A stretch of 64,000 nt of DNA from Williamsia maris. Lineage in GTDB: Bacteria > Actinomycetota > Actinomycetes > Mycobacteriales > Mycobacteriaceae. The stretch covers positions 558,001-622,000 of the forward strand of contig NZ_JAMTCJ010000004.1 in NCBI RefSeq assembly GCF_024171815.1. Reading direction: 5' to 3'. Made by a program: the position numbers and the translations under genes. Below the pieces are notes generated by a model. That model was not told the DNA's origin. It searched no databases and saw only the letters and a program-made list of their open reading frames with translations. Shown here piece by piece: positions 995 through 6,995 of the stretch; position 1 is the first letter of the stretch; each line of letters begins with the position of its first letter.

Positions 995-1867
995 ATGACG
1001 TTCCAGGGCAACGGACCGTTGGACACCAGCGGTGTCTCCGGGGGCGGCGGGGGCGGTGGTCGCGGCCGGATCGCCCTCGGCGGCGGCGCGAGCATCGTGG
1101 TGGCGATCGTCGCGATCCTGTTCGGGGTCAACCCCGGCGACATCCTCGGCGGCGACAGCAGCGGTGGCTCGACCGCCGGCTCCGGATCGTCGAACAGCGC
1201 CATCCAGAGCCAGATCGACAGCTGCACCATCGAGAAGGCGAACTCCGACACCATCTGCCGCATCGTCGCCACGAAGAACAGTCTCGACCGTGTCTGGCCG
1301 ACCCTGATGCCGAACTACACGAAGCCCGAGACCGTGATCTTCGCCGATGCCGTCGACACCGGCGGGTGCGGCTCGGCGACGTCGGCGGTCGGGCCGTTCT
1401 ACTGCCCGGGCGACCAGACGGCGTACTTCGACCCCACCTTCTTCACCACTCTCGCCGACCAGCTCGGTGGCAGCGATGCGCCGCTGGCCCAGGAGTACGT
1501 GGTGGCCCATGAATTCGGGCACCACGTGCAGAACCTGCAGGGGACCATGGACAAGGCGCAGAAGCTCGGATCCCGTGGTGCCACATCGGGATCCGTGCGT
1601 CTCGAACTGCAGGCAGACTGCTACGCGGGCGTCTGGGCCGAGCACGCCGACAAGGGGCCGGACGCGTTGCTCGAACCGCTGACCCAGCAGCAGATCGGTG
1701 ACGTGATCACCACCGCGAAGGCCATCGGCGACGACACCCTGTCGGGCAAGAACGATTCCGAGGGGTGGACGCATGGGTCGGCGGCGCAGCGGACGAGGTG
1801 GTTCACCACGGGCTACCGGTCCGGCGACCCCGCGAGCTGCGACACCTTCTCCACTAACCGCCTCTGA
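995..1867 (+). CDS. Membrane-anchored neutral zinc metallopeptidase (YpfJ family)
   Basis: A 290-residue protein of the neutral zinc metallopeptidase (YpfJ) family; the M. tuberculosis Rv2575 protein at this position is similar by my recollection. The N-terminus has a glycine/arginine-rich stretch followed by one hydrophobic anchor (about residues 29-46), so the rest is probably outside the membrane. The zinc site HEFGHH starts near residue 172 (HExxH with catalytic Glu). The ATG at 995 is chosen over in-frame upstream starts because AGGAG lies at 986-990. It is transcribed away from aspS. Substrate unknown. Confidence 0.88.
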   Translation: MTFQGNGPLDTSGVSGGGGGGGRGRIALGGGASIVVAIVAILFGVNPGDILGGDSSGGSTAGSGSSNSAIQSQIDSCTIEKANSDTICRIVATKNSLDRVWPTLMPNYTKPETVIFADAVDTGGCGSATSAVGPFYCPGDQTAYFDPTFFTTLADQLGGSDAPLAQEYVVAHEFGHHVQNLQGTMDKAQKLGSRGATSGSVRLELQADCYAGVWAEHADKGPDALLEPLTQQQIGDVITTAKAIGDDTLSGKNDSEGWTHGSAAQRTRWFTTGYRSGDPASCDTFSTNRL

Positions 1868-1878
1868 CCCCACCGCTG

Positions 1879-2057
1879 TTGGGCCGTCGTCTCGCCGGGT
1901 TGGGCCGTCGTTGCTCCGGGTTGGGCCATCGTTTCGCTGTGTTGGGCCATCGTTTCGCTGTGTCGGGCGCCACGGCCCAACACACGACAACAAGAGCCCA
2001 ACACGCGGGAACGAGGGCCCAACACGCGAACGTCACGGCCCACCGCGCGAGGGCGAT
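1879..2057. repeat. 21-bp-period inverted repeat array between two genes
   Basis: The core TTGGGCC (or a close variant) recurs at 1879, 1900, 1921, 1942 and 1963, exactly 21 bp apart. After a centre near 1971 the reverse complement GGCCCAA (or variant) recurs at 1974, 1995, 2016 and 2037, again exactly 21 bp apart. The units starting at 1921 and 1942 are identical over all 21 bases. The arms face each other, so RNA or single-stranded DNA could fold; the nearest pair (1938-1948 with 1974-1984) gives an 11-bp perfect stem. Position after a stop codon fits a terminator. The strict two-helical-turn period would also suit a phased protein-binding array. Confidence 0.9.
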
Positions 2058-2089: not shown

Positions 2090-3763
2090 ATGGATGCCAT
2101 GACCGGTCCCGACTCCCCGCGCACCCCCACCGCCATCGACGCGATCGCCGACGACTTCCTCACCCGGGCGTGTGTCGCCGATCCGGTGTTCTCGACCCTG
2201 ACCGGGGTGAGCGGAAACGACCACGCCCTGACCGACTACTCCCCCGGCGCCATCGACGACCGCGCCGCACTCACCCGGGACACTGTGCGTGCGTTGGCCT
2301 CAGCCACCCCGGTCGATGAGGTCGACCGGGTGACGGTGGCGACGATGACCGATCAGCTCGGCCGCGGACTCGCCGTGGACGAGGCCGGCCTGCGGACCGG
2401 TGAGGTCAACGTCATCGAGTCCCCGCTGCAGTCGATCCGGGATGTGTTCGATCTCATGCCCGTCGACACCGACGAGGATCGTTCGACGATGCTCGCCCGT
2501 GTCCGCGCCGTCCCCGAGAGCGTGGACTCGATCGTCGAGGGCCTACGGCATCGGATCGCCGCCGGACCACCACCGGCGCGCCGCCAGGTCGAGCTGGTGG
2601 CCGGGCAGGCGGCGGACGCGGCGTCCGCGCTGCTGAGCAACATCGACCGCGCCCTCGACACCGACTCCAGGTATTCGACCGACTTCGCCGCCGGCCACAG
2701 CCGTGCGGGCGCCGCGTTCGACAGACTGCGTGCCGTGCTCACCGACGAGGTGCTGCCGACCGCGACCGAGGCCGACGGGGTCGGGCGCGATCGGTACCGA
2801 CTGCACTCGGCGGAGTTCGTCGGCACCGACATCGACCCCGACGAGGCCTACCTGTGGGGCCTCGACCACCTCGAATCGATTGTGGCCGAACAGAAGACGC
2901 TCGCCGAGCAGATCGCGCCGGGAGCGGGGGTGGCCGGCGCACTGGCCGCCCTCGACGCCGACCCCCGCTACCAGATGACCGACCGGGACGCGTTCGTCGC
3001 CTGGATGCAGGAGCTCTCCGACCGGGCGACGACCGGGCTCGCGGGCACCCATTTCGACATCCCTACCGCGCTGACCAGCATCGAGTGTCGGCTCGCGCCC
3101 TCGGCGACCGGGACCATTTACTACACGATGCCCAGCGAGGACCTGAGCCGTCCCGGCCGCATGTGGTGGTCGGTGCCGCCGGAACAGACGGTCTTCCACA
3201 CCTGGCAGGAGACCACCACGGTCTTCCACGAGGGTGTGCCGGGACACCACCTGCAGCTGGGCCAGGCGATGACCAGCCCCGAGCTCAACCGGTGGCGCAA
3301 ACTCGCGTCGTTCACCTCCGGTCACGGCGAGGGGTGGGCGCTCTACGCCGAGCGCCTGATGTCCGAACTCGGCTGGCTCGACGACATCGGTGACCGGATG
3401 GGAATGCTGGATTCGCAACGCCTCCGGGCCGCCCGCGTCGTCGTCGACATCGGCGTGCACTGCGGTCTCACGGCCCCCGACTCCGTCGGCGGCGGCACCT
3501 GGGACGCCGACAAGGCGTGGACGTTCCTGTGCGACGCGGTTGCGATGGACCGGTCGGTCCTGCGCTTCGAGCTCAACCGCTACCTCGGATGGCCCGGGCA
3601 GGCGCCGTCCTACGCTCTCGGACAGCGGGTCTGGGAGCAGGCGCGCGCGGAGTTCCTGCGCACGCACCCCGACGCCGACCTCAAGGACTTCCACTCCCGG
3701 GCGTTGCGCCTGGGAGGGGTCAGCCTCGACGTGCTGCGTGCGGAGCTGATCGGCCGGACGTAG
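2090..3763 (+). CDS. DUF885 family protein, putative zinc peptidase
   Basis: 557 residues, full length for the DUF885 family, whose members look like zinc-dependent carboxypeptidases. The metal motif HEGVPGHH begins near residue 380 and a second conserved block, GHGEGWALYAERL, follows near residue 411, as is typical of the family. No signal peptide is visible, so a cytoplasmic protein is likely. ATG at 2090 and ATG at 2099 are both in frame; neither has a clear ribosome site, and the longer one is given. Expression could be affected by the 21-bp repeat array just upstream. Substrate unknown. Confidence 0.85.
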   Translation: MDAMTGPDSPRTPTAIDAIADDFLTRACVADPVFSTLTGVSGNDHALTDYSPGAIDDRAALTRDTVRALASATPVDEVDRVTVATMTDQLGRGLAVDEAGLRTGEVNVIESPLQSIRDVFDLMPVDTDEDRSTMLARVRAVPESVDSIVEGLRHRIAAGPPPARRQVELVAGQAADAASALLSNIDRALDTDSRYSTDFAAGHSRAGAAFDRLRAVLTDEVLPTATEADGVGRDRYRLHSAEFVGTDIDPDEAYLWGLDHLESIVAEQKTLAEQIAPGAGVAGALAALDADPRYQMTDRDAFVAWMQELSDRATTGLAGTHFDIPTALTSIECRLAPSATGTIYYTMPSEDLSRPGRMWWSVPPEQTVFHTWQETTTVFHEGVPGHHLQLGQAMTSPELNRWRKLASFTSGHGEGWALYAERLMSELGWLDDIGDRMGMLDSQRLRAARVVVDIGVHCGLTAPDSVGGGTWDADKAWTFLCDAVAMDRSVLRFELNRYLGWPGQAPSYALGQRVWEQARAEFLRTHPDADLKDFHSRALRLGGVSLDVLRAELIGRT

Positions 3764-5972: not shown

Positions 5973-6995
5973 TTGCCCAGCAACGAGCAACCCAGCAACG
6001 ACCAGCCCACGAACGAGCAGCGCCGCCAGGACGCGAAACGCAAGCTCGAGCAGCGCCTGGAGACCCAGCAGGCCGCAGCACGCAAACGCAAGATCATCAT
6101 CGTGTCGTCGTCGGTGATCGTGGTGTTGGTCGTCGCCGCGGCGGTGACCACCCTCGTGGTCAACAAGGTGCTCGACGACCGCGAGAAGGCCCGCTACACC
6201 GCCTGCGCCTACACACCGACCCCGGCGGACGCGAACCCGTTCGCCCAGGCGCCGCAGGTCCCGCCGAACCTCCCCGCCGCCCAGCAGGTGCTGGCCAAGG
6301 AGTTCGTCGACAACTTCACCGCGGGCAAGTCCAAGCAGCGCACGGCCACGATCCCCGCCGACCGTGAACTGAAGAAGGGCGAGCTGACCGCACAGTTCAC
6401 CACCAGCCAGGGGCCGATCACGATGACCCTCGACCGGTCGTCGGCCCCCTGCAACGTGGCCGCGGTGACCACGCTGATCAAGCAGAAGTACTACGACAAC
6501 ACCACGTGTCACCGGATGACCGAGGGCGGCACCGGCAAGATCGCCGTGCTGCAGTGTGGCGACCCCACCGGGACCGGTGCGGGCGCGCCGGGCTGGAGCA
6601 GCCCCGACGAGTTCCCCACCGACCTCAAGGTGATCCCGCAGAGCCAGCAGCTCGCCGCTATGGGACTGCCCAACTCGGCGATCTATCCGCGCGGGACCGT
6701 CGCGATCGCCAACAGCTACCAGCCCGGACAGGGCGGTCAGGCCAGCGGCACGAACACCGGTTCGGCGCAGATGTTCCTGGTGATCAACGACAGTGAGCTC
6801 CCGCCGAACTACAGCGTCGTGGGCAAGGTCGACGAGAACGGCCTCAAGGTGCTCGACACCGTCTACAAGGGCGGCATCAACCCGGGTATCCGGCCGAGCC
6901 AGGACCCGAACACCGGCGCCGTGACCTACGCACCGACCCCCGGTGACGGTGCGCCGAAGCTGCCCGTCGAGATCAAGACGGTCACCGTCAGCTGA
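5973..6995 (+). CDS. ppiB: Membrane-anchored cyclophilin-type peptidyl-prolyl isomerase
   Basis: 340 residues: a charged cytoplasmic N-terminus rich in Gln, Arg and Lys (1-40), one transmembrane helix (about 41-63), then a linker and a cyclophilin domain (about 130-338) that should lie outside the membrane. Cyclophilin landmarks are CHRM (catalytic Arg), VLQCGDPTGTG and SAQMFLV. The start is TTG at 5973, chosen because GGAGGG sits at 5959-5964 and because the protein from here, LPSNEQ..., matches the start known for mycobacterial homologues. It probably helps fold exported proteins. Confidence 0.9.
   Translation: MPSNEQPSNDQPTNEQRRQDAKRKLEQRLETQQAAARKRKIIIVSSSVIVVLVVAAAVTTLVVNKVLDDREKARYTACAYTPTPADANPFAQAPQVPPNLPAAQQVLAKEFVDNFTAGKSKQRTATIPADRELKKGELTAQFTTSQGPITMTLDRSSAPCNVAAVTTLIKQKYYDNTTCHRMTEGGTGKIAVLQCGDPTGTGAGAPGWSSPDEFPTDLKVIPQSQQLAAMGLPNSAIYPRGTVAIANSYQPGQGGQASGTNTGSAQMFLVINDSELPPNYSVVGKVDENGLKVLDTVYKGGINPGIRPSQDPNTGAVTYAPTPGDGAPKLPVEIKTVTVS

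Follow-up and report, generated by a model that had tools for sequence, protein, structure and literature searches.

TTF-I bound to the tandem Sal boxes behind the rDNA acts as an orientation-dependent protein roadblock, and RIBs combine REP sequences with an IHF site. We know of no dispersed tandem array of the roadblock sort in bacteria and, to our knowledge, the way in which transcription is ended and convergent genes are separated in high-GC actinobacteria is poorly settled. In E. coli, according to titles among the references of one paper (PMC2817692), elements at 3' ends include RIBs, which are bound by IHF, and BIME-2, which is cut by gyrase. REP and BIME elements are described, in passages of two papers, as protein-binding sites suspected of roles in supercoiling, termination, and mRNA stability (PMC2817692, PMC3733652). 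Part of a further account states that protein roadblocks can stop the polymerase, that they have been suggested to help delimit transcription units in yeast, and that among yeast roadblocks, including Rap1, some are orientation-dependent (PMC10310618). No description of arrays such as those reported below was found in searches of open-access literature, judged by title and start of abstract.

The array considered here lies in the window, a 64,000-nt stretch of the Williamsia maris genome (G000), between a gene for a putative neutral zinc metallopeptidase (PF04228, Pfam E 1.7e-65; ORF call at 995..1867, + strand, stop codon at 1865-1867) and a gene for a DUF885 protein (PF05960, Pfam E 1.5e-147; ORF call at 2090..3763, + strand). 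Its sequence and coordinates, first reported in an earlier note, were confirmed, with a correction to the number of exact cores. In the forward arm (1878..1969, + strand), whose first core starts 12 nt past the final base of the stop codon, four of the five TTGGGCC-type cores claimed at a 21-bp step are exact (1879, 1900, 1921, and 1942), whereas the fifth, at 1963, is a decayed TCGGGCG with two mismatches. The inverted arm (1974..2044, - strand), which reads toward the forward arm at the same 21-bp step, was said to hold four GGCCCAA-type cores; those at 1974 and 2016 are exact, and those at 1995 (AGCCCAA) and 2037 (GGCCCAC) each carry one mismatch. The two adjacent units reported as identical over 21 bp are indeed so, and are those at 1921 and 1942. 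At the center (1963..1980), the first inverted core is offset by 11 bp from the decayed forward core and by 32 bp from the nearest exact one. Both flanking genes are on the + strand, so that the gap is tandem and the inverted arm lies in the 5' region of the DUF885 gene. The consensus unit is GTTGGGCC(S)TCGTT.., and the TGGGC core sits within GTTGGGCC in this array. An origin from phage or plasmid was rejected, as no DNA similar to positions 1870-2060 of the window was found among 50,697 phage and 72,556 plasmid records. A known RNA family was also rejected: the Rfam matches, to three miRNA-precursor models (E 0.002, 0.002, and 0.34), were all far below the gathering scores.

Throughout the W. 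maris genome, TTGGGCC-N14-TTGGGCC occurs 39 times (reversed-pattern control, 1), and the three-unit pattern TGGGC-N16-TGGGC-N16-TGGGC gives 109 matches (reversed control, 4), at least two of which (C1:391161 and C3:692717) resemble related coding sequence. Arm and gap counts for this genome are drawn from the three-unit matches listed, among which array gaps number at least 47 and hold at least 247 units. The same core and step are recovered without selection: in the intergenic part of an unselected, contiguous 400 kb of this genome, TGGGC at lag 21 ranks first among 1024 5-mers x 95 lags, with 13 pairs against a mean of 0.47 over lags, and lag 42 is likewise high. A de novo scan for arrays of any period in 400 kb found them in 7 of 195 gaps (shuffled, 0 of 195), and four of these seven belong to the TGGGC family (period 21 or 42).

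Four TGGGC cores at 21-bp steps were also found in all eight Williamsia genomes (between 22 and 92 times per genome, against 0-3 for the reversed control), the matches of G006 and G007 being counts only, with their loci not read. The unique array that the earlier note would have reduced to a terminator is thus not what was found, as there are dozens of arrays in the W. maris genome and matches to the four-unit pattern in all eight Williamsia genomes. Across the family, the four-unit pattern occurs in 27 of 251 genomes in all; because several matches outside Williamsia resemble simple or coding repeats, and controls equal the matches in some genomes, credit there was limited to g5, g84, and g90, where the loci are few and were picked via the pattern itself. 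In G317 (genus g90), true 21-bp arrays occur with a different flank (L084-L088), e.g., GTCGGCTGGGCCCTTGTTCAC in L088. A slightly tighter two-unit TTGGGCC pattern was found in four of the eight Williamsia genomes (34 matches in G000, 20 in G003, 19 in G005, and 1 in G002) and in one of 298 genomes drawn from the order, namely the W. maris genome itself, in a draw that held no other Williamsia. A sequence-only two-unit model gave 55, 33, 28, and 4 matches in the set G000, G003, G005, and G002 and none in the other four Williamsia; 12 of 101 family genomes had a match to it at E 0.05, and reading the loci of the weak matches in G059, G345, G360, and G198 revealed no array.

A 400-kb sample of G006 (C1:1-200000 and C5:1-200000) showed no 21-bp TGGGC signal, although this genome has the most four-unit matches (92). 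Tandem arrays with periods of 13-30 bp occupy 16 of 212 gaps in that sample (shuffled, 0), and some of them may be coding. Prominent there (lags 22, 44, 66, and 88) are intergenic arrays of another family, which repeat the core GGCACG(N)TCG every 22 bp and were seen at G000:C1:359137-359238, G006:C5:130952-131303, and L017:1426-1470. In G005, L061 and L062 (contigs C71 and C80) carry the same array locus, perhaps through a redundant assembly end.

The constant part of the unit is TGGGC together with the step, which is smaller than the TTGGGCC first described. Wherever arrays were read, spacers differ by genome and by array (TGGGCCGTCGTT.., TGGGCACGTAA.., TGGGCGGTTGCGGAC..), genomes have their own dominant types, the spacers read within Williamsia fall into types such as STCGTTCYCCCGY, ACGTAAACCCGCCAGT, and GGTTGCGGACGTCGAS, and types mix in register inside a single array (e.g., C2:315105-315214). 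Behind the metallopeptidase gene, G000 and G003 have a TTGGGCC-type array, G002 has one of the TGGGCACGTAA type (by hand count, seven forward cores and four inverted ones, with one step of 20 bp), and G005 has a pair of TGGGCGGTTGCGGAC-type units; in G001, G004, G006, and G007 this gap is short and without an array. Replacement of the spacers with retention of the core and the step is hard to explain without selection on both. Divergence between orthologous arrays amounts to 15/318 positions (4.7%) in the core, 171/983 (17.4%) in the spacer, and 191/1542 in the flank, in 15 comparisons of which two are duplicates, several use a W. maris locus twice, and some have ragged alignments. Because arms were collected through their cores, conservation of the core within arrays is not independent evidence, and the comparison of orthologues is independent of that collection only in part: about half of the core changes could be hidden (a twofold inflation at most), and core divergence, if doubled, is still under that of the spacer.

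The opposed arms are related to each other by helical register. Measured between the forward and inverted cores that border the center, the offsets take the values 11, 12, 22, 31-34, 42, 44, 54-55, 75, and 98 bp, and in 36 convergent arm pairs from six genomes every offset modulo 21 falls in 0-2 or 10-14. At a period of 10.5 bp, R is 0.90 (Rayleigh p ~2e-13, 36 pairs), and a free scan of periods from 5 to 30, which used 55 instead of 98 for L179, peaks at 10.7 bp. Leaving out G003 and G005, which are nearest to W. maris by DUF885 protein, gives p ~3e-11. A lock to the 21-bp unit alone is insufficient as an explanation, because offsets in G002 and G004 that stand half a unit apart keep the helical register (at 10.5 bp, R is 0.95 in G002 and 0.85 in G004; at 21 bp it drops to 0.23 and 0.21, respectively), and the centers between arms are unlike in sequence. 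Some pairs are orthologous (the window array and L058; L019 and L051), so that independent pairs are slightly fewer, and a common ancestral two-arm element could account for part of the register. Both features of a phased array were found, in that sites stand at integral helical turns within arms and the register is kept across opposed arms.

Arrays sit close behind genes. The first core lies a median of 16 nt past the stop codon and within 30 nt in 93 of 129 cases, a few stop codons having been called inside the arm (distance -10); gene calls came from a simple codon-usage script trained on Williamsia, which placed 14 of 183 arms inside called genes. Among the array gaps listed for W. maris, convergent gaps make up 27 of the 43 that could be classified, compared with 17 of 195 in the background (gaps of at least 40 bp in a 400-kb sample of this genome; p 1.6e-13). 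Removal of duplicates reduced the arms from 183 to 177, of which 150 are from Williamsia; of these, 95 are in convergent gaps, 42 in tandem gaps (34 sense and 8 antisense), and 5 in divergent gaps, with the remaining 8 unclear. A count in which 149 of 169 arms stood behind a same-strand gene was discarded, since every arm in a convergent gap satisfies that criterion, and orientation statistics were confined to tandem gaps. Relative to the gene they follow, 34 of 42 Williamsia tandem-gap arms are in the sense orientation and 8 antisense (p 7e-5); W. maris alone has 12 sense and 3 antisense (p 0.035). Two-arm arrays in the genus are ordered -> <- in 39 cases and <- -> in one (before duplicate chains were removed). 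This polarity is not shared outside Williamsia, where tandem gaps hold 5 sense and 5 antisense arms and both of the two-arm arrays are <- ->.

The element is sparse: there are at least 62 arms in the W. maris genome, against 149 gene 3' ends with a gap per 400 kb, or ~1,800 per genome by extrapolation from that sample. So few gene ends carry an array that it is not a general terminator. A shared function of the carrier genes was rejected, as 10 genes picked from 54 entries (with duplicates) had no common theme at E 1e-10 and included transporters, a permease, carboxylases, KARI, LysR, an esterase, an amine oxidase, and one gene without a match. Between a forward arm and a distant inverted arm, three of nine scanned genes resemble MTES_1575/DUF559 endonuclease domains (L009:5917-6795, L166:3367-4065, and L191:3183-4067), with MTES_1575 scores below the curated cut-off and the DUF559 score in L166 above it; two of the ten MTES_1575 matches in W. 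maris lie between arms.

The large hairpin that the earlier note had offered as an equal explanation did not prove to be the common denominator. Under such a reading, the transcribed arms would pair into a long stem that serves as a bidirectional terminator or 3' stability hairpin at the RNA level. Any inverted repeat must fold well, and the window array does so (-126.8 kcal/mol, z -4.6); short stems also form at offset-12 centers (L163, L181, and L185), and in L087 of G317 (~3014-3090), unlike in Williamsia, opposed units with the same core, arranged <- ->, make a long hairpin (GGCCCACTCGACGGGG/CCCCGTCGAGTGGGCC). Among the gaps listed for W. maris, however, 15 of 47 have two arms by the criteria used and 32 have one, though some of the latter perhaps hold a decayed second arm. 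When 12 single arms were selected and folded, 11 gave structures no more stable than those of shuffled sequences (z -1.4 to 3.0), the exception being L220 (z -4.1). Spacers of same-locus arms, moreover, are less complementary than permuted ones in the TTGGGCC type (permuted arms equaled or exceeded the observed value in 1982 of 2000 trials, from 11 locus entries with L010 entered twice) and, with five loci per genome, in G001, G002, and G004 (4789, 4840, and 4292 of 5000). This is not seen in G003 (724/5000), and the mixed-type set from W. maris shows the opposite (0/5000), since the two arms at each locus there have the same type of spacer. The avoidance of complementarity between arms would be explained by the instability of long perfect inverted repeats in DNA. 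The helical register across arms is, finally, without meaning in RNA. No stem with a U-tract was found at 1800-2200 of the window. U-tract terminators are present at 6 of 53 W. maris array ends among those listed (one a duplicate), five of the six before the array, and at 10 of 149 control ends (5 of 34 convergent controls); at this similar frequency, arrays do not clearly replace such terminators. Fifteen arms start 56-85 nt past the stop codon, and nine of them (L015, L016 on both sides, L100/L183, L166, L204 on both sides, L214, and L219), which form five orthologous groups, all in Williamsia, follow a strong terminator-type hairpin (~-32 to -45 kcal/mol), with a clear T-run in L015, L100, and L166 and only TTC.. 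in others; in two loci the array stands between two hairpins. No such hairpin was found in the interval between stop codon and arm at L019-, L051+, and L200-, and at L056 and both arms of L190 this interval is itself array-like. At the nine arms, the array follows a terminator-type hairpin and does not replace it. Hence, although arrays do lie at 3' ends, as the earlier note had expected of a mere terminator, it does not follow that they are only that, and we regard the RNA hairpin as very unlikely to be the general explanation. At L016 (two-arm array at 6194-6402; G000:C3:394500-407500), the two hairpins that enclose the array are near-identical and mirror-arranged, an arrangement that suggests joint copying of terminator and arm.

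Other explanations differ in how they treat the core, the register, and the polarity. A selfish or neutral minisatellite, spreading as a repeat, tolerated at 3' ends, and keeping its core by recent copying only, would fit the likeness of adjacent units (spacer identity 0.62, vs. 0.55 between loci), the gains and losses of whole units in some orthologues (-21 in the orthologue of the window array, +21 in L018, and -42 in L019), and the genome-specific dominant spacers; yet unlike spacers share the core and the step, the core diverges far less than the spacer (4.7% vs. 17.4%), and the register extends across arms, all of which makes this account quite unlikely. That 21 bp equal seven codons, with TGG GCN specifying Trp-Ala in every spacer type, raises the thought of a coding repeat, a seven-residue Trp-Ala-x5 peptide made by stop read-through or from an unrecognised ORF, and distances after the stop codon have an in-frame excess (54 vs. 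36 and 31). This excess is mild and tied to a common distance of 10 nt, however, nine arms lie behind terminator-type hairpins, and no frame stands out, since among the 183 arms five frames are each open in 126-167 and the remaining one in 104; coding was rejected on these grounds and has a negligible chance of being correct. The closest rival is a topological or nucleoid anchor, at which a nucleoid protein or topoisomerase would absorb supercoils between convergent genes with no stopping of polymerase, since E. coli 3'-end elements bind IHF (RIB) or are cut by gyrase (BIME-2). The 3'-end position, the convergent gaps, and the helical phasing agree with it, and such roles are named for REP elements in parts of the literature (PMC2817692, PMC3733652). 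Against it, a supercoil sink has no need of the sense bias of 34 to 8 in Williamsia tandem gaps, the unit lacks palindromic symmetry, and the search of W. maris for a RAYT gene gave no match; we hold an anchor of this kind to be unlikely.

The best reading is that the element acts as DNA and not as RNA. A cooperative DNA-binding protein would be expected to produce just these traces, with sites facing one side of the helix within and across arms, a core that is short and conserved, and spacers that can change, and the array is probably a protein-bound DNA element of some function. The earlier note's suggestion of a cooperative protein on one helix face is favored by the register in 36 of 36 arm pairs and by the greater conservation of core than spacer, from which we infer the binding. 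A transcription boundary is suggested in addition by the position past stop codons and, at some loci, past terminators, by the sense orientation in Williamsia, and by the preference for convergent gaps. We therefore propose, with a probability of roughly 0.5, that the array may be a phased DNA platform on which a putative protein seals the ends of transcription units. In this proposal, each TGGGC would be one contact site for a sequence-specific DNA-binding protein, and the 21-bp step, at two helical turns, would set all sites of one arm on the same face. With the opposed arm in the same register, the protein could assemble cooperatively across both arms, and the resulting nucleoprotein array would act as a fail-safe roadblock, halting any RNA polymerase that reads through and separating neighboring units. 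Counting against this proposal are the lack of a shared polarity outside Williamsia, the small share of gene ends that carry an array, the similar frequency of U-tract terminators at array and control ends, and the G006 sample without a 21-bp TGGGC signal.

An element of this kind, found throughout the genus at the ends of genes, defined by its sequence and helically phased, would offer a direct handle on how transcription ends in actinobacteria. The array DNA could serve as bait for the protein, and half-turn shifts of one arm could probe the mechanism. It would, moreover, illustrate clearly how selection can preserve a 5-bp core and the helical pitch and leave the intervening sequence free to change.

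In comparison with known systems, the arrays resemble the REP/BIME elements of enterobacteria and pseudomonads in being extragenic, present in many copies, often clustered, composed of opposed units, and placed at 3' ends. They differ in that the REP/BIME unit is a palindrome of 20-40 bp, whereas the Williamsia unit is non-palindromic, with a 21-bp step, a 5-bp core, and a changeable spacer, and its arms are in helical register with each other. No match to RAYT (Y1_Tnp, PF01797) was found in the W. maris genome, in a search that was positive in 5 of 14 control genomes, and a mobile REP/RAYT system was rejected for this reason. The array lacks two defining features of REP/BIME, the palindromic unit and the RAYT, as well as the U-tract of intrinsic terminators. 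Intrinsic bidirectional terminators share with the arrays a place between convergent genes; they are set apart by the stem and U-tract absent from the window array, by the single arm in two thirds of the array gaps listed, and by the nine arms that lie behind a separate hairpin. The RIB/IHF sites of E. coli are likewise DNA elements at the 3' ends of transcription units, bound by an architectural protein according to part of one paper (PMC2817692), in contrast to the tandem phased cores and the putative protein of Williamsia. With the roadblock systems, Rap1 and TTF-I, the arrays would share sites that can stop the polymerase. We file the array in the broad kind of 3'-end protein-binding repeats, as which it appears to work. 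A more specific possibility, which we regard as doubtful, is that a dedicated protein reads TGGGC every two turns and polymerizes on one face of the DNA through both arms, forming polar barriers to transcription at dozens of unit ends; the array would then correspond, in bacteria, to the tandem terminator-protein arrays of eukaryotes, with a spacer that can be replaced wholesale between species.
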